Shown: positions 4,178 to 18,763 of the stretch, in pieces | How the letters are laid out: each line of letters opens with the position of its first letter | How positions within the stretch are numbered: the first letter of the stretch is position 1 | From: Chishuiella changwenlii | Lineage (GTDB): Bacteria; Bacteroidota; Bacteroidia; Flavobacteriales; Weeksellaceae | Assembly (NCBI RefSeq): GCF_900142565.1 | Contig: NZ_FRBH01000003.1 | Coordinates: 62,001 to 126,000 of the forward strand | Length of the DNA: 64,000 nt | Reading direction: 5' to 3' | Translations under genes and position numbers: made by a program | Notes under the pieces: generated by a model | What the model saw: only the letters and a program-made list of their open reading frames with translations | Told to the model about the DNA's origin: nothing | Databases searched by the model: none

Positions 4178-4251
4178 GGTCCTATAACTCAGTTGGTTAG
4201 AGTAGCTGACTCATAATCAGCAAGTCCTTGGTTCGAGCCCAAGTGGGACCA
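4178..4251 (+). tRNA. tRNA with anticodon CAT (Met or Ile2), copy 1
   Basis: A 74-nt cloverleaf. The acceptor GGTCCTA pairs with TGGGACC, the anticodon stem GCTGA/TCAGC encloses loop CTCATAA, and the T arm is CTTGGTTCGAGCCCAAG. No CCA is encoded. CAT may be elongator Met or lysidine-modified Ile2; I cannot separate these by eye. Confidence 0.93.
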
Positions 4252-4281
4252 CAAATTTTGAAATAAGAGATTTATCTCTCC

Positions 4282-4355
4282 GGTCCTATAACTCAGTTGG
4301 TTAGAGTAGCTGACTCATAATCAGCAAGTCCTTGGTTCGAGCCCAAGTGGGACCA
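4282..4355 (+). tRNA. tRNA with anticodon CAT (Met or Ile2), copy 2, the integration target
   Basis: Identical to the copy 30 bp upstream over all 74 nt. Its 3' half is repeated at 31700-31743, which marks this gene as the attachment site of the island. The tRNA stays intact because the element carries the same 3' half. Confidence 0.93.
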
Positions 4356-4356
4356 C
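4313..4356 (+). repeat. left attachment repeat (attL)
   Basis: 44 bp covering the anticodon loop to the 3' end of tRNA copy 2, identical to 31700-31743. The same 44 bp is also in tRNA copy 1 (4209-4252). Confidence 0.88.
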
Positions 4357-8017: not shown

Positions 8018-9169
8018 ATGAAAACTTCAATCAACTTCAAATGCGTCAAAGATGATTCGGAAGTTCATAATTTTCGTAAAAAATCTTACGATTATATTCG
8101 AAAAGATCTAACCAAAAATAATGAATATTGGTTAGGTGAAAAAATTGCTATTCGTAGAAATAAAATCGAGCAATACTGTAAAGAAAAATCAGGTAGGAAA
8201 TTACAAAAAAATGCTATGCCTATTCGTGAAGCAGTTGTTGTAATTAAAGAAAAAACAACAATGTTAGATTTGCAGAATTTAGCAAAACGATTAGAAATTG
8301 AATTAAAAATTAGAGTTTTTCAAATTGCAATTCATAAAGATGAAGGACATTTTGATAAAGATACTAAAGAATGGAAACCAAACTATCATGCCCATCTAGT
8401 AGCAGATTGGCAAGATATAGAAACAGGAAAAACTTTAAAACACAAATCTCTTGATTATGTAAAAATGCAAGATATTACTGCTGAAGTTTTAGGAATGGAA
8501 CGAGGGGCTTTTGGTGGTAAAAATAGATTAGAAGCACTTGAGTTTAAAATTTCAAAAAAAGAAGAAGAATTAAATCAACTTCAAGAAAAAATTGACTTAA
8601 TTACTAAAGAATTACAAGGTAAATCTTTAAATGATTTAAAAATAATGAAGAATGATTTATTAGGATTTAAACATAACGATAAAGTAAAAACTCTAGAAAA
8701 TTATGAAAAAGTTATCAAGTCTTTAAACGTAAAATTAGATTCATTAAATCAAAATTTTAAGAAGAAAAATGAAGAAGTAATTAAATTAAAGGACAATATT
8801 TCTTTTATAAATAATGAAAATTCAAACTTAAAAATTAAGAATGCTAAGATTTTAACAGATAAAGATTTTCATGCACAGGAGAAAAATGAGTATTTGAATT
8901 CAGTTTTGCAATTATTTATAAACGAAACAAAATATAATAAGTTAAGGGATCCATATAAGGACAGATCTTCTAATGGTATTTTATTAAAAGAAGTCCAACA
9001 GATTGCATCTAAAATTATGGAGAAGAATCAAATTCCTGAATCTACAATTGACACATTGTTTTCTAATGAGAAAGTCGTTTCTATTATTTCACAAATACTT
9101 AAACCAAATAGTGTTAATAATGAAAGTAATGAAAATCAACAAAAGAGAAGACCTCGTTTTAAAAGGTAA
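8018..9169 (+). CDS. MobV-family relaxase (plasmid recombination enzyme, Pre/Mob type)
   Basis: 383 residues. The N-terminal 160 residues carry the Mob_Pre relaxase fold, with the metal-binding HUH-type sequence NYHAHLVADW near residue 127 and the conserved downstream region ending GMERG. Residues about 165-270 are a long Lys/Glu-rich coiled coil, usual for this family. The enzyme nicks oriT and starts strand transfer, using the conjugation machinery of another element. Its presence defines the island as mobilizable. Confidence 0.87.
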   Translation: MKTSINFKCVKDDSEVHNFRKKSYDYIRKDLTKNNEYWLGEKIAIRRNKIEQYCKEKSGRKLQKNAMPIREAVVVIKEKTTMLDLQNLAKRLEIELKIRVFQIAIHKDEGHFDKDTKEWKPNYHAHLVADWQDIETGKTLKHKSLDYVKMQDITAEVLGMERGAFGGKNRLEALEFKISKKEEELNQLQEKIDLITKELQGKSLNDLKIMKNDLLGFKHNDKVKTLENYEKVIKSLNVKLDSLNQNFKKKNEEVIKLKDNISFINNENSNLKIKNAKILTDKDFHAQEKNEYLNSVLQLFINETKYNKLRDPYKDRSSNGILLKEVQQIASKIMEKNQIPESTIDTLFSNEKVVSIISQILKPNSVNNESNENQQKRRPRFKR

Positions 9170-9254
9170 ATTATTAATAAACATATTAACTAAAATTTAG
9201 TTATTTTTACATCATTAAAATAGTAATTACGTACGCGTAAGCTATCGTCAATTG

Positions 9255-9373
9255 GTGACAGAAAACCGCGAATTTTCAAAACAACCAAATTTTCGATGGG
9301 CTTACGCCCATGTCTATATATGGCGTGGGCTAAGTCTTTCTGGTTGTTGGGTTCTTCGCGGTACCTCTGTCAC
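9255..9373. other. highly structured non-coding element (119 bp)
   Basis: Nested complementary arms: GTGACAG (9255-9261) with CTGTCAC (9367-9373), CCGCGAA (9266-9272) with TTCGCGG (9355-9361), AACAACCA (9280-9287) with TGGTTGTT (9341-9348). Inside is a 6-bp hairpin ATGGGC-TTAC-GCCCAT (9296-9311). It is much richer in GC than its surroundings and holds no ORF. It could be a structured RNA, a single-strand origin, or a transfer/recombination site. It belongs to the mobility module by position. Confidence 0.6.
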
Positions 9374-9420
9374 GAAATGTATTTAGTTCCACGCTACTTT
9401 TTTCTAAAAACAATCTAGAC

Positions 9421-9930
9421 ATGGAGAATCAATTAACACTACAAGAGAAAAAAAGTATTATTTCTCAATTTTTAAATATTTCCTTTTTTGGAAATATTAA
9501 TCCACCAGAATTTAAACGATTAAATGAAGTTGAAGTAAAAGAGTTTTCTGATTCTTTTAAATCAGGAATTCTGAATAGAACAGAAGATTTTAAACCATTT
9601 ATCATAAGTTCAATTTCAGCATATATTTCAAATTTGAATGAAACTGAAAGAAAGAAACTGTATTTGATGATGATATCTACTGGAAATTTTACTGCAGATG
9701 CTTTTTTATTCAATGAAAATGATGCTAGCATCGAAGAAATACATATTAGTATTCTTGAAGCAATTGAAAAAAATCAAAATAACTTATTTGTTAATTTATT
9801 TTTTTCTCGAATTCTAACTATAAAAGGAGGGATTATAGCTCATAAAAAGCATTATGCTACGAAAGAATGGTACGATTCTGCTATAGAAAATCAGTTGAAT
9901 GACTATAATGAATTATGTTTTATTAATTAA
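9421..9930 (+). CDS. hypothetical protein
   Basis: 169 residues, family not recognised. No signal peptide or membrane helix. It is mostly helical in pattern, with Asn/Ile/Phe-rich segments. It follows the structured element at 9255 by 47 bp and precedes a secreted protein gene by 12 bp, so these two may be one transcript. Codon use is AT-rich like the mobility genes. Confidence 0.5.
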   Translation: MENQLTLQEKKSIISQFLNISFFGNINPPEFKRLNEVEVKEFSDSFKSGILNRTEDFKPFIISSISAYISNLNETERKKLYLMMISTGNFTADAFLFNENDASIEEIHISILEAIEKNQNNLFVNLFFSRILTIKGGIIAHKKHYATKEWYDSAIENQLNDYNELCFIN

Positions 9931-9942
9931 ATATTTGACAAA

Positions 9943-10497
9943 ATGAAAGCAAGATTTACAATATTCATCTTATTCTATATGATTTTAAATTCTTTCTCTT
10001 TTGCTCAACAAAAATGCCCTGATTTAGAAAACGAACTTAAATTTCAAAAGGCTAAAAATGAGGAATTATTAAAGGAAAATCGTTATTACAAAGAAACGTT
10101 AGATTTATTGAAACCAATTCACTCGGTTAAAATTGATGGTTTACAACTTGATATTACAAGTGTTGTAGGTTCTAAAGCTGATAACACCGTTACAGTAACT
10201 TTTATGTATAAAAATATAGAAGTAGAAACTCGAAGCTTTTTCCAATGTGAGCAGGCTTATTTTATAGATCCACAAGGAAATCAAGCTCAGATGTATGAAG
10301 TATTTGTGTCATTTAATAATGGAATTCGAGCCGAAAATATCAAACCTAATATCCCAACCAAAGCAACCATCACATTTAAAACAACCGAAACTAACTTCCC
10401 AATCATGCGACAATTAAAAATAATCGTTTATCCAAAAGAAGTAATGGCAAAACAAATTGAAGCAATTTTTGAAAATCTAGATGTTGTATGGAAATAG
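9943..10497 (+). CDS. hypothetical secreted protein
   Basis: 184 residues with a clear signal peptide (about 1-21, cleavage likely after SFA). A short coiled-coil stretch follows (residues about 28-55, ENELKFQKAKNEELLKENR), then a beta-rich domain. No catalytic motif is seen. Exported, probably periplasmic; function unknown. Its role in the mobile element is not evident. Confidence 0.55.
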   Translation: MKARFTIFILFYMILNSFSFAQQKCPDLENELKFQKAKNEELLKENRYYKETLDLLKPIHSVKIDGLQLDITSVVGSKADNTVTVTFMYKNIEVETRSFFQCEQAYFIDPQGNQAQMYEVFVSFNNGIRAENIKPNIPTKATITFKTTETNFPIMRQLKIIVYPKEVMAKQIEAIFENLDVVWK

Positions 10498-11135: not shown

Positions 11136-12104
11136 ATGGCAGTAAATAAAAATGAGCATTTAAATAAAGTTTTGGAAACGCATCGTATGTTTCATATCAA
11201 TGCTTTAGTGACAAAACATAAAGAAAAAAGAGATGAAATTAAAGAAGCTTTAGAAACAGAATTCAATTCTAAAATATACAGCCCTTTTAATTCTGGTTCT
11301 TTTGGTAAACATACTGCTATCAATACTAAATTTGATTTAGATATTGTTGCTCCATTTAAAAAAGATTCTTTCTCTACAATAGAGGATATGTTTAATGAAG
11401 TATATGAGTTTTTGTATAATAAGTATCATTATACAGGTAAAGCAGAGGTGAGAAAACAAAAAGTTTCTATTGGTGTAATATTTAATATTGATCAAGACGG
11501 TGATCAAATTAGTATTGATGTGGTTCCTGGTAGAGAATTGACTCAAGATACATATCTTAAAGAAAAAGATCTTAATATCTATTTTAATGAAGATAAATGG
11601 GGATTTTCTAAAGGATCTTATATGAAAACTAATATCCAAGCACAGATTGATCATATTAAAGGTAAAGATTCTGAAAGAAAAATAATTAGATTATTTAAGA
11701 TTTGGAAAAATTCAAATAGTGAAGAGTTCAAGTCATTTATGTTAGAGTTGATATCAATTAAAGCATTTGATAAGTCCACTATTGAAGGTGATTTATGGGG
11801 TAAACTAAAAGGAGTTATGACTTATATAAGAGACAATGTTACCAATGATAGTTTTACTTTAAAAGACCCGGGGAATTCTAATAATGATGTGATTCAAACT
11901 TTATCTACTTCACAAAGACAACATCTTTCTGATAGAATGAGGATAATTATTGACAACATTGAAGCTAATGCTGAAAATATAAAATCATATTTTCCTATCA
12001 ATGAAGAATTTGATATTCCAGAAGAAAATAATTCGAGTTCTTACGGAGTAAAAGAATCAAGTACTGTATTTTCAATACCTTCAGATAATCAACGTTTTGG
12101 ATAA
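11136..12104 (+). CDS. CBASS CD-NTase (cGAS/DncV-like nucleotidyltransferase)
   Basis: 322-residue nucleotidyltransferase that would make a cyclic oligonucleotide signal on phage infection. The NTase signature GSFGKHTAIN (from about residue 53) leads to the catalytic pair DLD near 66-68. The third carboxylate is in ISIDVVPG near 126. The protein ends ...NQRFG, with a C-terminal glycine, the residue that Cap2 enzymes of type II CBASS join to target proteins. The stop overlaps the Cap2 start, so translation is coupled. First gene of a four-gene operon. Product nucleotide and clade cannot be told by eye. Confidence 0.88.
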   Translation: MAVNKNEHLNKVLETHRMFHINALVTKHKEKRDEIKEALETEFNSKIYSPFNSGSFGKHTAINTKFDLDIVAPFKKDSFSTIEDMFNEVYEFLYNKYHYTGKAEVRKQKVSIGVIFNIDQDGDQISIDVVPGRELTQDTYLKEKDLNIYFNEDKWGFSKGSYMKTNIQAQIDHIKGKDSERKIIRLFKIWKNSNSEEFKSFMLELISIKAFDKSTIEGDLWGKLKGVMTYIRDNVTNDSFTLKDPGNSNNDVIQTLSTSQRQHLSDRMRIIIDNIEANAENIKSYFPINEEFDIPEENNSSSYGVKESSTVFSIPSDNQRFG

Positions 12105-13759
12105 TGAGATTTGACAAAATCAAGACAATTATAAATAAAATTCCTTTTGTCAAGAATTTAAATGATATAAGGCAAGAGGAATTTTTTATTGTTGGGAATG
12201 TAGATATTTTATTTGATGGTTTAGATAAACCTTTAAATTTTGAATTTACTATAACGAAAGAATACCCTTTAAAGAGTTTTGATTCAGAATCTATTAAGTT
12301 TTCTAATCCTGATTTTATAGAATATAATCATGTGATGCAGAATGGCTTAATTTGTATTCATACGTCTCATAGTAGATCTTTAGAAAGTAAATTACAGATT
12401 GATTTTAATTCTCTTAAAAATTGGATTGTAAAATATTACATTAATAAAGATATTGATTCTAATTATGAACATGTTGTTGTAAATGATTCTAGTATTGAAG
12501 GAAATACATATTCGTTTATTTTTTCAGAAACTAATAATAGTTTTAACCAATCTGAATTTGGCTCAGTTGAGATGGCTTATTTAAACCAAGGTAGATACAG
12601 AGAAGGTAGTATTTTTAATTTTCTTGTGAAAGAATTTAAAGATTGTAAAACACAAGAAAGTAAACAATGTAATTGGAGTAATCAATATAGTAATTTAGAA
12701 ACAAATTTTGAAGGAGTGTATTATTTCTATGATAATCCACCTGCAGTTTATAATAAATTTGTTTTCAATACTTGGAATGAACTTCAGTTTAGTCAAGATT
12801 TTTTAGATTTTTTATTTAAACTAGAAACTGAAATTCAATATTCTGAATATAAGTCATTCCCTTTATTTATAGGATATAAGATTAATGAAACTGAAATTCA
12901 TTGGCAAGTTTCTATTTTAGAAATAGGTAATTTCCCTCTAAAGGGGATACCAACAAAAATTGATGGAAAGAAAACAGGTAAATGGAAAACAGATTTAGTG
13001 GATGAAAAAATAAATTGGGCTTTATCAAGAAATGCATCTTATCAATATTTTTTTGGAAGAGGTAAATTCTCTAATGAATTAACAGATAAAAAAATTATGA
13101 TTATCGGTATTGGCGCTGTTGGTAGTATAATAGCTAAAACTCTTATTAGGTGCGGATGTAAGTTTATTGATTTTATTGACCACGACATTAAAGAACCTGA
13201 GAATGTATGTCGATCAGAATATTTTTTTAAAAATGGAATTGCCAATAAAACCTATGAACTAGAGAAGATTCTATATGAAATATCACCTCATGCAAATTGT
13301 AAAGGTTTACAGAGTAATTATTTTGAAAATGTAATTAAATCATTTTATACCGAAGATGAATTTAAAATGAATATTGAAAATGATTTAGAATATTATGATT
13401 TAATAATTGATTGTTCAACTGATAATGATTTAATGTACGTTTTAAATTCATTAAAATTAAATATTGACTTAATAAATATTTCATTGACAAATCACTCAAA
13501 AGAGTTAGTTTGTGCTTTCTATCCTAATACTTATTCGTTTGTAAATAATCAATTTTCTAATGTATTAAATAATGATGTTGAAGATTTATATGAACCAACA
13601 GGATGTTGGAGTCCAACATTTAAAGCTTCATATAATGATATAAATACGATGGTTCAAATAGCATTGAAACGTTTGAACAAAATATTCAGTGGAGAATTGA
13701 GTAAAAATAATTTTGTGATTCAAGAAATTGAAGATCAACTAAAAATCATAGAATATTGA
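12104..13759 (+). CDS. cap2: CBASS Cap2, E2-E1 fusion (ubiquitin-transfer-like enzyme)
   Basis: 551 residues. The N-terminal E2-like domain has its likely catalytic Cys in NGLICIH (near residue 85). The C-terminal E1/ThiF adenylation domain has the nucleotide loop GIGAVG (near 331-336), the acidic FIDHD strand, the Arg in ENVCRSEY, and a candidate E1 Cys in TGCWSPTF (near 500). Cap2 adenylates the CD-NTase C-terminal glycine and transfers it, which primes signal synthesis. It starts at the last base of the CD-NTase stop codon and ends overlapping Cap3. Confidence 0.87.
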   Translation: MRFDKIKTIINKIPFVKNLNDIRQEEFFIVGNVDILFDGLDKPLNFEFTITKEYPLKSFDSESIKFSNPDFIEYNHVMQNGLICIHTSHSRSLESKLQIDFNSLKNWIVKYYINKDIDSNYEHVVVNDSSIEGNTYSFIFSETNNSFNQSEFGSVEMAYLNQGRYREGSIFNFLVKEFKDCKTQESKQCNWSNQYSNLETNFEGVYYFYDNPPAVYNKFVFNTWNELQFSQDFLDFLFKLETEIQYSEYKSFPLFIGYKINETEIHWQVSILEIGNFPLKGIPTKIDGKKTGKWKTDLVDEKINWALSRNASYQYFFGRGKFSNELTDKKIMIIGIGAVGSIIAKTLIRCGCKFIDFIDHDIKEPENVCRSEYFFKNGIANKTYELEKILYEISPHANCKGLQSNYFENVIKSFYTEDEFKMNIENDLEYYDLIIDCSTDNDLMYVLNSLKLNIDLINISLTNHSKELVCAFYPNTYSFVNNQFSNVLNNDVEDLYEPTGCWSPTFKASYNDINTMVQIALKRLNKIFSGELSKNNFVIQEIEDQLKIIEY

Positions 13760-14220
13760 TATTAATTAATACATATAATAATCTTAAAATAAAGATAGAA
13801 GAAGCGTTAATAAATAAGATTGGTGAAATTGCGATACAACATTTTCCAAATGAGATTGGAGGTTTTTTGATTGGAAAATATTCTAATAATCACTCACTCG
13901 TAGAGATTGAAGATATAATTCTTCCTAATAAATATAAAAACTCACCAACTATGTTTCAAAGATCTGCAAATGATTTATCTGAAGAATTTAAAAAAGAGTT
14001 TAATAAAAACCAAAGATTTTATATTGGAGAATGGCATTCTCATCCTAATGCATCTACAATGTACAGCAGTATGGACTTAAAAGCAATGATTGAAACAGTT
14101 AATAGTCCAACAGTAATGATTACAAATCCAATACTTTTAATAATAAGTACAAACAATTCGAAGATTAATAATTACACATTTTATTGTTTGTCAGAAAATA
14201 AATTACACAAATATGAGTAA
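13756..14220 (+). CDS. cap3: CBASS Cap3, JAB/JAMM isopeptidase
   Basis: 154-residue metalloprotease that reverses Cap2 conjugation. The JAMM motif is complete: a Glu in EIGGFLIG (near residue 34) and HSHPNASTMYSSMD (near 94-107), which gives HxH, ten residues, then Asp. The start is a TTG inside the overlap TTGA with the Cap2 stop; no nearer ATG fits. The gene then overlaps the next ORF by 8 bp. Having E1/E2 and JAB components places this CBASS in type II. Confidence 0.87.
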   Translation: MILINTYNNLKIKIEEALINKIGEIAIQHFPNEIGGFLIGKYSNNHSLVEIEDIILPNKYKNSPTMFQRSANDLSEEFKKEFNKNQRFYIGEWHSHPNASTMYSSMDLKAMIETVNSPTVMITNPILLIISTNNSKINNYTFYCLSENKLHKYE

Positions 14221-15046
14221 CAAAATACCATTAAATCAACTGTTCAATGGTTTACAGAGTCAAATGAGTGCTCAATTAAATACAAATCGTGAATTTATCA
14301 ATCACCCTGGCTCTAAAGGAGATGCTTTAGAAGAAGCTTGGATTGAATGGTTAAGAAAATATTTACCGAATAGATATAGTGTTGATAAAGGGATTGTAAT
14401 AGACCATGAAGGAAATACAAGTCACCAAATAGATATTATAATTTATGATAATTGGTTTACACCTTTCATATTTACACAAAATGGTTTTCACTATATTCCT
14501 GCAGAAGGTGTATATGCAGTTTTTGAAGTTAAACCAGATTTAAAAGGTAATGTTGAAGAGAAAACATATATAGAATATGCTGGTGATAAAATAGAGAGTG
14601 TGCGTAAATTAAAAAGAACTTCTACAGACATTATTAATGCCGGTGATAAATGGAAAGCACGACCATTAACAAAAATTGTGGGAGGTATTTTAGCTAGTAC
14701 AAATACAATTAAAAAGACTTCGACAATTGAAAAGCATTTAAAGTCGTTGACAGGATTAAAATCTATAGATTTTGGTTGCGCAGTAGACTATGGGAGTTTT
14801 TATATTGATTATATTGGATCAGAAGATGTTAATAAAAAAGATGTTGATGAATTTCAAGAGAGATTTCTGAATTATTATAATGATAGAACATTTAATAAGA
14901 TTGAGTTTAGTGATAAAGAAAATTCATTAGTTACATTTTTTATGCAATTAACTAGATACCTTCAACAAGCGATAGGGACGGTTGCAGCAATTGATCTACA
15001 AAAATATCTTGATAGTATTGGTGAAAAGCTAGATGAGGAAATTTAA
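14213..15046 (+). CDS. putative CBASS effector, PD-(D/E)XK-like (DUF6602-like)
   Basis: 277 residues. The core has HQIDIIIYD (Asp near 71) and AVFEVKPDL (E-V-K near 104-106), the order expected for a PD-(D/E)XK nuclease, with ALEEAWIEWL giving an N-terminal Glu. Length and motif recall DUF6602 proteins. It overlaps the JAB gene by 8 bp and occupies the usual effector slot of the operon. There is no SAVED domain, membrane segment or phospholipase motif, so how it would sense the nucleotide is unclear. A nuclease effector is inference from fold and place. Confidence 0.65.
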   Translation: MSNKIPLNQLFNGLQSQMSAQLNTNREFINHPGSKGDALEEAWIEWLRKYLPNRYSVDKGIVIDHEGNTSHQIDIIIYDNWFTPFIFTQNGFHYIPAEGVYAVFEVKPDLKGNVEEKTYIEYAGDKIESVRKLKRTSTDIINAGDKWKARPLTKIVGGILASTNTIKKTSTIEKHLKSLTGLKSIDFGCAVDYGSFYIDYIGSEDVNKKDVDEFQERFLNYYNDRTFNKIEFSDKENSLVTFFMQLTRYLQQAIGTVAAIDLQKYLDSIGEKLDEEI

Positions 15047-15769: not shown

Positions 15770-18460
15770 ATGCCCAAAAATGATGCTCTTAATTATCTAA
15801 AAGAAAACAACATTTGGATTAAAGGAATATGTACAATTTTAATTATTGTTTACATAATTTTCCCTTTTTTAGATAATCAGTTAAGAAATTCATTTCTTAT
15901 TACGAAAAAATTATCAGAATATAACAGTTTTAGATTTATATATTGGATAATATTCAGTACAATTTTATCATACAATGTATACTGCTTATTTATAAGAAAA
16001 TATGTGTATTCTAAATTCTATTTATTTACGACTACTGTCCTTTCAATTTCATATATTTTTATAAGATTCGATGATTCATTAAGAACTAATATAAAATTTT
16101 CTGAATATGATAGGTACCTTAATTTACCATTTTACTATTTAGACATTCTATTATTTATTTTACTATTCAATATATTTCACTTAATTATTAGAAGTTGTGA
16201 AGAAATATTTCCAAAAAATGAGATAATCTACTTTACGGATAGTAACGATGACGATGAAATATTAAATAATGATGATAATGATTTTGAGCTTCAGAACTAC
16301 ATTGACAATATAAATGATTTGATTTTAAAGCAAACTCCAAAAAGAACTTTTACGATAAGTTTAAATTCTAAATGGGGTACTGGTAAAACATTTTTTTTAG
16401 AGAAACTCGAAAAGAAATTAAAAGAATCAAATGAAATTATTATAATTCCTTTTAATGCTTGGAAATATGAAGATTCTTCTTCTTTACTAAAAGAATATTT
16501 TAATACGATTGGAAAAGAATTAAGTAAATATAATGCAAATGCATCTAAAGCTTTTCATAATTATTTTATATCAATTTTTAATTATGGTGGTGTTAATATA
16601 AAATCGTTTGCAGAAGGAATTTCAGATTATTTACTAGGTAATAGAGATAATTCTCTAAATAAGACTAAGAAAATTGTAAAAGATTTAGATAAAAAAATAG
16701 TTATTATAATTGATGATATCGATCGTTTAAAGAAAAAAGAGTTATTTGAAGTTTTAAAATTAATTAGAAATTTATCTGATTACCCTAATTTTTATATCAT
16801 AACAACTATTGATAATAATTACTTAATAAATGAAGGTAAATTAGATGGTAGTTATTTGGAAAAGATTTTTAATCTTCAAATCGATTTACCTTTAATCAAC
16901 AATTATACATTAAATGAATACTATAATAAATGTTTATTAACTCTTTTAGAAGAGCAAACAGCAAATTTGATTATTGAAAGCACAAACACACTTTTCAATG
17001 AATCTACTTTTTTTAAAGTTTGGAATACATTCAATAATAGGCAAGATACTCCTAAAGCTGATTCAACTTCTGAAGGGAATTTAGTAAATGTTCAATTACA
17101 ATTAATAATTTTTTTATATAATAGAAGACAAGTTAAACGATTTGTTAATAATTTAAAATTTGCACATCTTACTAAAATTAATAAGTATGATTTATTACTA
17201 GATAAGTATTTATTAGTGAATCTCGTAGTATTCAAGTATCCAATAATGAAACATCTAATGTCAATTGAAAATATTAGATATTATACAACTAATAATAATC
17301 AAGGTAAATTATCTTTTGATAAAAAGATTTTTTTAGACTTTTTAGAGAAACATCATGTTGATTTTAATGTATATGATAAATCCATTTTGGTTGCTTCATT
17401 AGATTATATTTTTCAAAATCAGTTTAGTTTACTTAATGATATAAGCAATGAATATTATTATCCAATCTATTTAGACTCTTATACTAATTCTTTAAAAAGA
17501 AGTGAAATAGTCGAAAAGTTTAAAAATAACGAATTAAAAGAATTTATTATTAATCATTTAGATTCTACAGATTTACATTTTATTAAAAAAGTTTTAATCG
17601 ATCAATTAGATAATTATGATGTTGTAGAAATATCAGTGTTAATTAAATTTTTATCAGATGAAAAATTTCGAATTTTAGACGGAATGGATTTTCTTGAAAT
17701 ATTAAATAAAACTGAAGAAAATAAATTATCAGAATTAGCAACTATTATTTTATCAGAAGAATTTTTAAATAATAATATTCATTTCGAAGATGTAATAAAG
17801 AATTATTACTATTTATTAATAGATCCTGAAAAACAAAAGAAGGATAATGAATTTAATATTTATTTACAGTATTACAAATTAAAAGAAGAGGTTAAAAAAG
17901 TTTTTTCAAAAGAAAAAATACAAGAAATTTTATTTAAAAATTTAGCTAATAAAGTTTTGAATCTGAATTATTCAAACGAGCATTTCAATCCTTTAGAAAG
18001 TGAATTATTTTATTCATATAATTTTCATACAGATATTATTAAAGCAAACACTTTTTATCTAGAAACAAAAAAGTTTTTAAAATCATTACTAAAAGATGTA
18101 GAATTTAGAGCGTATATTATTTTATGTTACAATTTTAATGATGATTCAAAACGAATTTTCGAAATTTATTCTATGTTAATGATGGATAATCAAGAGCAAA
18201 AAGATTTTGAAGAAATATCTAACTTAGGTGTAATCTACGGTTTCGATAAAATTAAAAATACAGATGTAAATAATGAAGATGAGATGACTGATAAATTGAG
18301 ATTAATCAACAATAAATCCTTTATTTTTTATGATTTAGACAGGTTAAAATCATTATTTAATAAAATTAAAAATGAGGATCTATCATATGTATCTTATGTA
18401 GAGAATATTAAAAATATTAATTTTGAAAGGTTCAAAAGGTATTTAGGAATTCAAGATTAG
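15770..18460 (+). CDS. KAP-family membrane P-loop NTPase
   Basis: 896 residues. Four predicted membrane helices (about 16-33, 52-73, 82-100, 117-140) precede a KAP NTPase domain with Walker A in KWGTGKTFFL (near 200-207) and Walker B in IVIIIDDIDRL (near 308-318). The remaining 500 residues are helical and not assigned. KAP NTPases often insert their membrane segments within or before the NTPase core, and many sit in defence islands; a phage-defence role here is inference. It has its own gap on both sides and is very AT-rich compared with the restriction-modification genes. Confidence 0.8.
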   Translation: MPKNDALNYLKENNIWIKGICTILIIVYIIFPFLDNQLRNSFLITKKLSEYNSFRFIYWIIFSTILSYNVYCLFIRKYVYSKFYLFTTTVLSISYIFIRFDDSLRTNIKFSEYDRYLNLPFYYLDILLFILLFNIFHLIIRSCEEIFPKNEIIYFTDSNDDDEILNNDDNDFELQNYIDNINDLILKQTPKRTFTISLNSKWGTGKTFFLEKLEKKLKESNEIIIIPFNAWKYEDSSSLLKEYFNTIGKELSKYNANASKAFHNYFISIFNYGGVNIKSFAEGISDYLLGNRDNSLNKTKKIVKDLDKKIVIIIDDIDRLKKKELFEVLKLIRNLSDYPNFYIITTIDNNYLINEGKLDGSYLEKIFNLQIDLPLINNYTLNEYYNKCLLTLLEEQTANLIIESTNTLFNESTFFKVWNTFNNRQDTPKADSTSEGNLVNVQLQLIIFLYNRRQVKRFVNNLKFAHLTKINKYDLLLDKYLLVNLVVFKYPIMKHLMSIENIRYYTTNNNQGKLSFDKKIFLDFLEKHHVDFNVYDKSILVASLDYIFQNQFSLLNDISNEYYYPIYLDSYTNSLKRSEIVEKFKNNELKEFIINHLDSTDLHFIKKVLIDQLDNYDVVEISVLIKFLSDEKFRILDGMDFLEILNKTEENKLSELATIILSEEFLNNNIHFEDVIKNYYYLLIDPEKQKKDNEFNIYLQYYKLKEEVKKVFSKEKIQEILFKNLANKVLNLNYSNEHFNPLESELFYSYNFHTDIIKANTFYLETKKFLKSLLKDVEFRAYIILCYNFNDDSKRIFEIYSMLMMDNQEQKDFEEISNLGVIYGFDKIKNTDVNNEDEMTDKLRLINNKSFIFYDLDRLKSLFNKIKNEDLSYVSYVENIKNINFERFKRYLGIQD

Positions 18461-18514: not shown

Positions 18515-18763
18515 TTAAAACAATTTCTCAAAAGCTTCATCAATTTCATGGTCTTTAAAATCTTCTAAGTAAGACTCAGTAGTTTTAATAGATTGATGAC
18601 CGAGAGCTTGTTTAATTTTAGAAACTTGTACACCATTTCTCAAAGATAATGTTGCAAAACTATGTCCTGCAGTATAGAAATTTATTTTTGTGTCTGCTTT
18701 TAGTTCTTTAAAAAATCTGTTTTTAACGACACTTTTTGACGTGTCAAGATATAAGTTTGTCAA
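18515..18763 (-). pseudogene. 3' fragment of a tyrosine recombinase
   Basis: 82 codons that match the C-terminus of the full integrase at 30322-31584: LGHQSIKTTESYLEDFKDHE is identical in both. The first three quarters of the gene, with the first catalytic Arg, are missing. The conserved YTARH is YTAGH here, so a second catalytic Arg is lost as well. It cannot be active. The fragment marks the former right end of an older element and suggests fusion or deletion between two related elements. Confidence 0.88.
18752..18759 (+). promoter_or_regulatory. candidate -7 promoter element for the 77-residue gene
   Basis: TAAGTTTG fits TAnnTTTG and lies 20 bp before ATG 18780, within the broken end of the integrase fragment. 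The small inverted repeat TTGAC-GT-GTCAA at 18736-18747 lies just before it and could be an operator. Confidence 0.4.

Follow-up and report, generated by a model that had tools for sequence, protein, structure and literature searches.

A Large, Strongly Conserved Candidate Leader RNA in Front of Many Unrelated Genes of Bacteroidota

Introduction

In the genome of Chishuiella changwenlii, a hairpin-rich stretch of DNA lies behind a relaxase-like gene, which raises the question of what kind of element it is. In the preliminary description of this DNA, three nested perfect arms of 7, 7, and 8 bp and an internal hairpin were noticed at positions 9255–9373 of the window (the whole stretch of 64,000 nucleotides analyzed here), and a structured RNA regulating mobility or cargo, a single-strand origin, or a replication or transfer site was proposed. 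The comparative analyses presented below indicate that the stretch belongs to a family of large, strongly conserved RNAs, predicted from sequence, whose members precede many unrelated genes of Bacteroidota.

Structure of the Element in the Window

The three nested arms and their perfect pairing were recovered (9255–9262/9366–9373, 9265–9272/9355–9362, and 9280–9287/9341–9348), all of them being 8 bp long instead of 7, 7, and 8. The internal hairpin (GCCCATGTC/GGCGTGGGC) was found as well, and the ORF list of the window has no ORF of at least 80 aa inside the element, in agreement with the earlier reading. The region had also been called GC-rich, which holds relative to its surroundings but not in absolute terms (G+C content of the core, 44%). 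The proposed extent of 119 bp was too narrow: the conserved core occupies 9235–9396, and around it conserved sequence begins at approximately 9202 and a U-tract reaches approximately 9405. The order of the unit is a promoter-like box, a core of approximately 160 nt, the U-tract, and a start codon at 9421. Folding of 9230–9400 gave −73.5 kcal/mol versus −39.2 ± 4.4 kcal/mol for 200 shuffled sequences (z = −7.9), none of which was as stable; the minus strand of the element gave a folding z of −6.5.

Homologs were searched with a covariance model, R1, which was built from 31 members including the window copy, so that independent support comes from members outside the 31. Two alignments are cited below: A1, which is unfitted, and A4, which was fitted to helices A:A′ and B:B′ and whose pairing counts lean towards those helices. 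The segments of the RNA are arranged in the order A-x1-x2-x3-A′-C-B-y3-y2-y1-B′, where x:y are the arms noticed earlier. The features of the leader and the genes behind it are as follows.

9202..9209, + strand: putative promoter −7-box-like sequence TATTTTTA, one mismatch to TAnnTTTG; the conserved stretch begins here
9235..9396, + strand: conserved RNA core, R1 positions 1–160 (170.3 bits, E = 6e-42)
9235..9247, + strand: segment A, 5′ arm of helix A:A′ (A:A′ paired cells 97.6% in A1, 92.2% in A4)
9255..9262, + strand: x1, partner of y1 (sequence; covariation)
9263..9264, + strand: conserved internal loop AA, facing ACC at 9363–9365 (AA or A in 82 of 87 placed members; duplex folds)
9265..9272, + strand: x2, partner of y2 (inner positions with several kinds of Watson-Crick pairs, as many as all four)
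9280..9287, + strand: x3, partner of y3 (own −17.4 versus swapped −10.2 kcal/mol in the swap test, 47 nonredundant members)
9294..9307, + strand: segment A′, partner of A (pairing and swap test; earliest helix in prefix folds)
9306..9314, + strand: segment C, first partner of B, inner hairpin (C:B paired 98.2% in A1, 93.5% in A4)
9321..9336, + strand: segment B, pairing with either C or B′ (pairing and swap test; A1 column 101 covaries with columns 81 and 172)
9341..9348, + strand: y3 (repeat search, duplex folds, and swap test)
9355..9362, + strand: y2 (repeat search and covariation)
9363..9365, + strand: conserved internal loop ACC (ACC, CC, or AC in 79 of 87 placed members; duplex folds)
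9366..9373, + strand: y1 (sequence; covariation)
9379..9396, + strand: segment B′, second partner of B, adjoining the U-tract (B:B′ double changes in 13 of 14 pairs, in an alignment fitted to B:B′)
9398..9405, + strand: U-tract right after B′ (T in 65–85% at positions 1–7 past the core, 46 nonredundant members)
9421..9930, + strand: first gene behind the leader, encoding a 169-aa protein without match in the databases searched (leader upstream in all full-length relatives found)
9943..10497, + strand: second gene, encoding a 184-aa protein (in L016/L046, a relative with 41% identity immediately follows the leader)

Distribution of the Element

Of 320 genomes of the family (Weeksellaceae according to the lineage in the sequence header), 226 have R1 matches with E ≤ 0.01. 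At E ≤ 1e-6, matches were present in 59 of 395 genomes drawn from the class and in 30 of 395 drawn from the phylum, the own family being included in both samples. The same search revealed several copies in many genomes; the genome of the window itself has one full-length match, and one R1 match at E ≤ 0.01. Using blastn (E ≤ 0.01), 35 of 199 genomes, own included, gave a match, the weakest of these matches being short. Neither 72,556 plasmid records nor 50,697 phages gave a blastn match to the element. Weak R1 matches (18 in 12 genomes, 32–57 bits) were also considered: sixteen weak matches were read by eye, and 15 show the architecture, the other one (L180) lacking the 3′ part.

An exact DNA pattern was found in 73 stretches of named genomes, 67 of which also match R1 at E ≤ 0.1. 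The six others (L099, L101, L117, L129, L161, and L166) were placed by hand from the pattern, and five members (L134, L118, L146, L120, and L132) are weak R1 matches with E from 0.001 to 0.1. Pattern-positive organisms include Chryseobacterium, Faecalibacter, Flavobacterium, Soonwooa, Cruoricaptor, Pedobacter, Mucilaginibacter, and Sporocytophaga, as well as bins labelled Spirosoma and Chitinophaga. Three members (L118, L120, and L146; R1 E 0.005 to 0.07) are labelled Verrucomicrobiae or Akkermansia; these are metagenome bins, and their labels therefore settle nothing on occurrence beyond Bacteroidota. The pattern also matches four viral contigs, three of which score the same as bacterial records (L172/L152, L173/L170, and L174/L126) and are probably the same places as those records.

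Conserved Pairing and Alternative Folds

Among 88 aligned members, 95.8% of the cells of x1x2:y1y2 are paired, with 177 double-change cells versus 40.6 in shuffled alignments and a covariation score of 0.489 versus 0.130. Covariation of x:y is also present in A1 alone. The helices A:A′ and B:B′ had been missed in the preliminary description. In A1, 95.8% of their cells are paired and 13 of 27 pairs show double changes; in the fitted A4, 90.5% are paired and double changes occur in 25 of 27 pairs (422 cells versus 137 shuffled). For C:B, the excess of covariation in A4 is real but modest (0.340 versus 0.272). Compensatory base changes, which had been suggested as a check of the structured-RNA option, are plentiful among homologs, with double changes in x:y, A:A′, and B:B′ alike, and they support this option.

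Arms could be placed in 87 of the 88 sequences (all except L222), at positions picked for best pairing, for which a swap test served as the control. In this test, the pairing of each segment with its own partner was compared, for 47 nonredundant members, with its pairing with the partners of other members; segments were cut at fixed fractions, and the C and B segments share two bases. Own partners were favored for B:B′ (−23.8 versus −16.8 kcal/mol), C:B (−19.8 versus −14.9), and A:A′ (−12.2 versus −8.4), and the x1x2:y1y2 score, which has a maximum of 17, was 16.1 for own and 12.65 for swapped partners.

A closing rod of A with B′, which is preferred by the single-sequence fold, showed next to no excess in the swap test (−7.5 versus −7.1 kcal/mol). 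In A1 this pairing did not covary beyond shuffles (90.0% paired versus 90.2% shuffled), and in A4 a small excess was observed (78.4% versus 75.1%, with 0 of 500 shuffles as high). Because A1, A4, and the swap test show little or no excess, A:B′ was left out of the conserved fold, in which weak A:B′ pairing may nevertheless occur.

Segment B keeps two mutually exclusive partners, C and B′, which is a sign of a switch. Both folds, C:B and B:B′, are maintained as far as the pairing of homologous sequences indicates. In addition, the x:y helix crosses A:A′ and B:B′, and a large pseudoknot would result if these helices coexist. Prefix folds of the window leader showed that A:A′ forms earliest, followed by C:B and then by the x:y rod, B′ emerging last. 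On nearest-neighbor energies, the x:y rod (−73.5 kcal/mol) exceeds the B:B′ state (−49.9 kcal/mol) in stability by 23.6 kcal/mol, and thus B:B′ would need either help or coexistence with x:y as a pseudoknot, the latter of which would make the element less of a switch.

A further hairpin, D, whose loop matches the first half of B′, was found beyond the U-tract in 24 of 85 members, many of the distant ones included. With shuffled downstream sequence the corresponding number was 2.5 (maximum 5), and with swapped B′ it was 8.6 (maximum 15). Hairpin D was not detected in the window or in 61 of the 85 members tested. Two earlier and weaker tests of B′:D pairing gave −10.1 versus −8.3, and P < 0.05 in 15 of 87 members (4.4 expected); the later test, in which a hairpin was required, had the clearer outcome.

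Additional structures were observed in some groups of members. In Chryseobacterium members such as L108, L116, L139, and L151, a second hairpin, ACGACA...TGTCGY, lies approximately 35–60 nt past the core and before the start codon. A subfamily comprising L176, L182, L183, L186, and L187 has a TAACTTTGCGATACTTC-like stretch upstream and, downstream, a CTAAG stretch complementary to segment A (GCTTAG), which is perhaps a further alternative partner of A.

Position in Front of Genes

In total, 175 sequences were collected. A motif filter kept 169 of them, among which 133 were unique; four of the six rejected sequences resemble true members. The unique members are not independent, as 21 of them have one downstream protein cluster in common. 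Where a downstream ORF could be assessed (124 members; 9 of the 133 could not), it shares the strand of the element in 117 cases and is opposite in 7; the upstream ORF shares the strand in 41, with 81 opposite and 11 not assessable; these calls come from a crude ORF caller, and the mis-placed locus L202 was kept.

TAnnTTTG is the consensus of the −7 box of Bacteroidota promoters. It was found in 75 of 130 upstream regions, versus 7.9 (maximum 15) in mononucleotide shuffles. The distance from the leader core to the start codon has a median of 55 nt, the start codon often lying 10–60 nt downstream and, in several Chryseobacterium members, 200–600 nt downstream. A scan of 9100–9500 for intrinsic terminators found none, with a loop limit of 8 nt in the scan, and B:B′ encloses approximately 40 nt. 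A plain intrinsic terminator was rejected: stem B:B′ and the U-tract exist, but the loop of approximately 40 nt is not short.

Genes behind the Leader

Clustering of the 117 downstream proteins gave 62 clusters, which have no common family. In a scan of 57 of the 62 cluster representatives, no Pfam, NCBIfam, or PADLOC family was common to more than two. Matches included a SusC-type receptor and response regulators, and secreted or lipoprotein-like sequences were recognized by eye; type III methyltransferases were found as well, at loci detected by the pattern alone, without an R1 match. The largest cluster (21 proteins) precedes operons in Chryseobacterium that look Rhs-like by eye. As the downstream genes have no common pathway, they suggest no ligand. 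The preliminary description had considered regulation of mobility or cargo; cargo comes nearer than mobility, the genes behind being of many kinds.

The 169-aa protein of the window belongs to a family of proteins of about 170–195 aa, which has no significant match in Pfam, NCBIfam, or PDB sequences; the window protein has none in PADLOC. A profile search of 316 genomes revealed 20 matches in 16 genomes of four genera. The profile had been built without eight of these 16 genomes, three from the genus of the window (G003, G008, and G011) and five from other genera (G256, G276, G363, G367, and G371). The leader was directly upstream of all 19 full-length members found; for the twentieth match, a fragment of 38 residues, no leader was found.

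Comparison of 35 loci (34 regions and the window) showed relatives of the 169-aa protein in seven, relatives of the 184-aa protein in six, and the relaxase-like (Mob-like) gene of the window in three. With this gene near the element in three loci of 35, it is an incidental neighbor, to which the element is not tied. The product of this gene matched nothing in Pfam, PHROGs, or NCBIfam, so that the name relaxase is a by-eye reading. The leader and the 169-aa and 184-aa genes were also observed to recur as a unit in different islands (the window and L032–L035), where it either follows a Mob-like gene or adjoins genes that by eye resemble type I restriction-modification genes.

In the family of genome G476, which is probably that of Pedobacter, the leader was found in front of genes for small proteins resembling the C-terminal domain of the RNA polymerase alpha subunit (alpha-CTD) at 10 of 25 loci examined, and at none of the five loci with open frames of rpoA length (334–338 residues). 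The resemblance is weak: three of four queries had Pfam E values of 0.0006 to 0.03, below the cut-off, and the fourth had none. Such proteins were observed directly behind the leader at L249, L250, L251, L253, L254, L257–L260, and L266, and also at L102, L111, L127, and L144.

Possible Function of the Leader

We consider it very probable that the element is a conserved leader RNA; that it works as an attenuator, with B pairing alternatively with C and B′, has about an even chance. From the sequences, we infer transcription, termination, and switching of the leader along the following lines. Judging from the promoter-like box, transcription would start approximately 20 nt before the core and would produce the core before the start codon is reached. 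Segments x1–x3 would pair with y1–y3 to form a long helix that joins the halves of the core around the conserved AA/ACC internal loop, and the remaining segments would form A:A′ plus either C:B or B:B′, the two excluding each other. Formation of B:B′ next to the U-tract would lower expression of the following gene by early termination, C:B would prevent this lowering, and a signal sensed or bound by the x:y core and its AA/ACC loop may decide between the states. In many members, the loop of hairpin D would keep B′ from B near the start codon.

The main rival to this attenuator is control of translation through B′ and D, in which the same leader would act after transcription, B′ and D gating the start codon and the U-tract serving as a ribosome landing site. 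The start codon is indeed near (median 55 nt), and D, which lies past the U-tract and matches B′ above chance by its loop, fits translation control as well as termination. With D undetected in the window and most members tested, and with the start codon 200–600 nt away in several Chryseobacterium members, such a mechanism seems to us not very likely. The leader might also act together with the small protein behind it, either like a type III antitoxin or as an autoregulatory binding site, and have been borrowed later by other genes. The association with all 19 full-length relatives of the 169-aa protein (316 genomes), half of whose 16 genomes lie outside the profile, and the layout of promoter, pseudoknotted RNA, U-tract, and small gene speak for such a module. 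It is nonetheless unlikely, considering that the 62 downstream clusters represent mostly other families, that the 169-aa protein matches no toxin or ToxN family and has relatives in only four genera, and that 9150–9450 holds a single 8-nt direct repeat and no RNA repeat array. We think it quite unlikely, too, that the RNA is at once a switch and a protein partner, i.e., a phylum-wide device acting on RNA polymerase or elongation, with the 169-aa family and the alpha-CTD-like proteins as founding partners, which would have spread as a module upstream of genes for accessory functions, defence, and secreted toxins.

A promoter-like box and a U-tract of its own would be expected of a stand-alone noncoding RNA independent of the next gene, but in 117 of 124 cases the gene behind has the same orientation, upstream genes are mostly opposite, and the best candidate for 6S-Flavo RNA in the genome is at another place; this explanation is improbable. 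Highly improbable is a DNA site that acts as folded single-stranded DNA, such as a transfer or single-strand origin or an attC-like recombination site. The element is a long imperfect palindrome in an island behind a relaxase-like gene, as such a site might be, but its strand-specific placement before genes, the promoter box, the U-tract, and the absence of matches in the plasmid and phage records argue against it. The proposed single-strand origin or replication/transfer site found no support, as 32 of 35 loci lack this Mob-like gene (the sole relaxase-type gene searched, which also led us to reject oriT), no plasmid matched, and a same-strand gene usually follows. An integron attC site, which is expected behind each cassette gene, was rejected since the element lies in front of genes.

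Comparison with Known RNAs

Rfam 15 (4227 families) gave only two tRNAs in the window at the gathering threshold. With the cut-off relaxed to E ≤ 10, 9150–9450 matched two microRNA models, both far from reaching threshold, and 20 loci with members (124 kb) gave only tRNAs. Searches of the open literature by topic and core sequence found no description; the supplementary motif lists of earlier surveys were outside their scope, and an unnamed entry there is possible. A 12-base piece of the core recurs in papers that are unrelated as far as their titles tell. A survey of 2017 reportedly listed 224 candidate RNAs, and a name for the leader motif there was checked through Rfam alone. Judged by the sequence evidence, the RNA family is real; it is absent from the databases searched and belongs to the structured leader RNA kind, and its predicted bistable or pseudoknotted fold is unusual.

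With riboswitches and attenuator leaders, the element shares a structured 5′ leader, a segment with two exclusive partners, a U-tract, and a gene directly behind. Unlike them, it has no Rfam match and no common pathway downstream, and its x:y helix crosses A:A′ and B:B′. Type III toxI-toxN leaders consist of a promoter, a pseudoknotted RNA, and a terminator-like U-tract followed by a small protein gene. This layout is similar, as is the linkage of one small-protein family to the leader in 19 of 19 full-length cases, but the leader has no ToxN relative and no RNA repeat array, and the genes behind many members encode other proteins.

Antitermination RNAs (HK022 put, EAR, and LoaP-type RNAs) also head varied transcripts, some of which, in the case of our leader, are long secreted or Rhs-like operons (Rhs-like by eye), and some genes behind the leader encode free-standing alpha-CTD-like domains. 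The likeness is one of description, and the leader differs in having a U-tract; to our knowledge, no U-tract is part of the HK022 put, EAR, or LoaP-type elements. 6S RNAs are of a size similar to that of the leader RNA, and both are long and nearly unbranched, but the leader precedes genes and has several copies in many genomes. 6S RNA was rejected as an identification: the 6S-Flavo model (RF01685) finds two places in the genome, neither at the element, the best (contig C16) scoring 50.7 bits, below the cut-off of 85.

We know of few large structured leader RNAs from environmental Bacteroidota. The present leader is widespread in the family (226 of 320 genomes), has no match in Rfam 15, and shows a bistable, possibly pseudoknotted fold that is documented by compensatory changes. 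It gives access to the question of how these bacteria might switch their accessory genes and their secreted Rhs-type genes, and to a small-protein family of which no full-length member lacking the leader was found in 316 genomes. PMC8040213 describes palindromic candidate RNAs of ~80–132 nt in gut Bacteroidetes, one near phage genes; their likeness to the leader is one of description.

Genomic Island around the Window Copy

Two tandem tRNA-Met genes with identical scores (4178–4356) lie just before the island and are its likely integration site. Downstream of the two genes of the leader, a CBASS operon (11136–15046) was found to encode an oligonucleotide cyclase, E1-E2 and JAB proteins, and a NucC effector. 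It is followed at 15770–18460 by a gene for an 896-aa protein with a PifA match, which is probably a KAP-type NTPase (KAP by eye). At 18515–18763, on the minus strand, a short ORF resembles by eye a C-terminal piece of a tyrosine recombinase and is a possible remnant of the island integrase.
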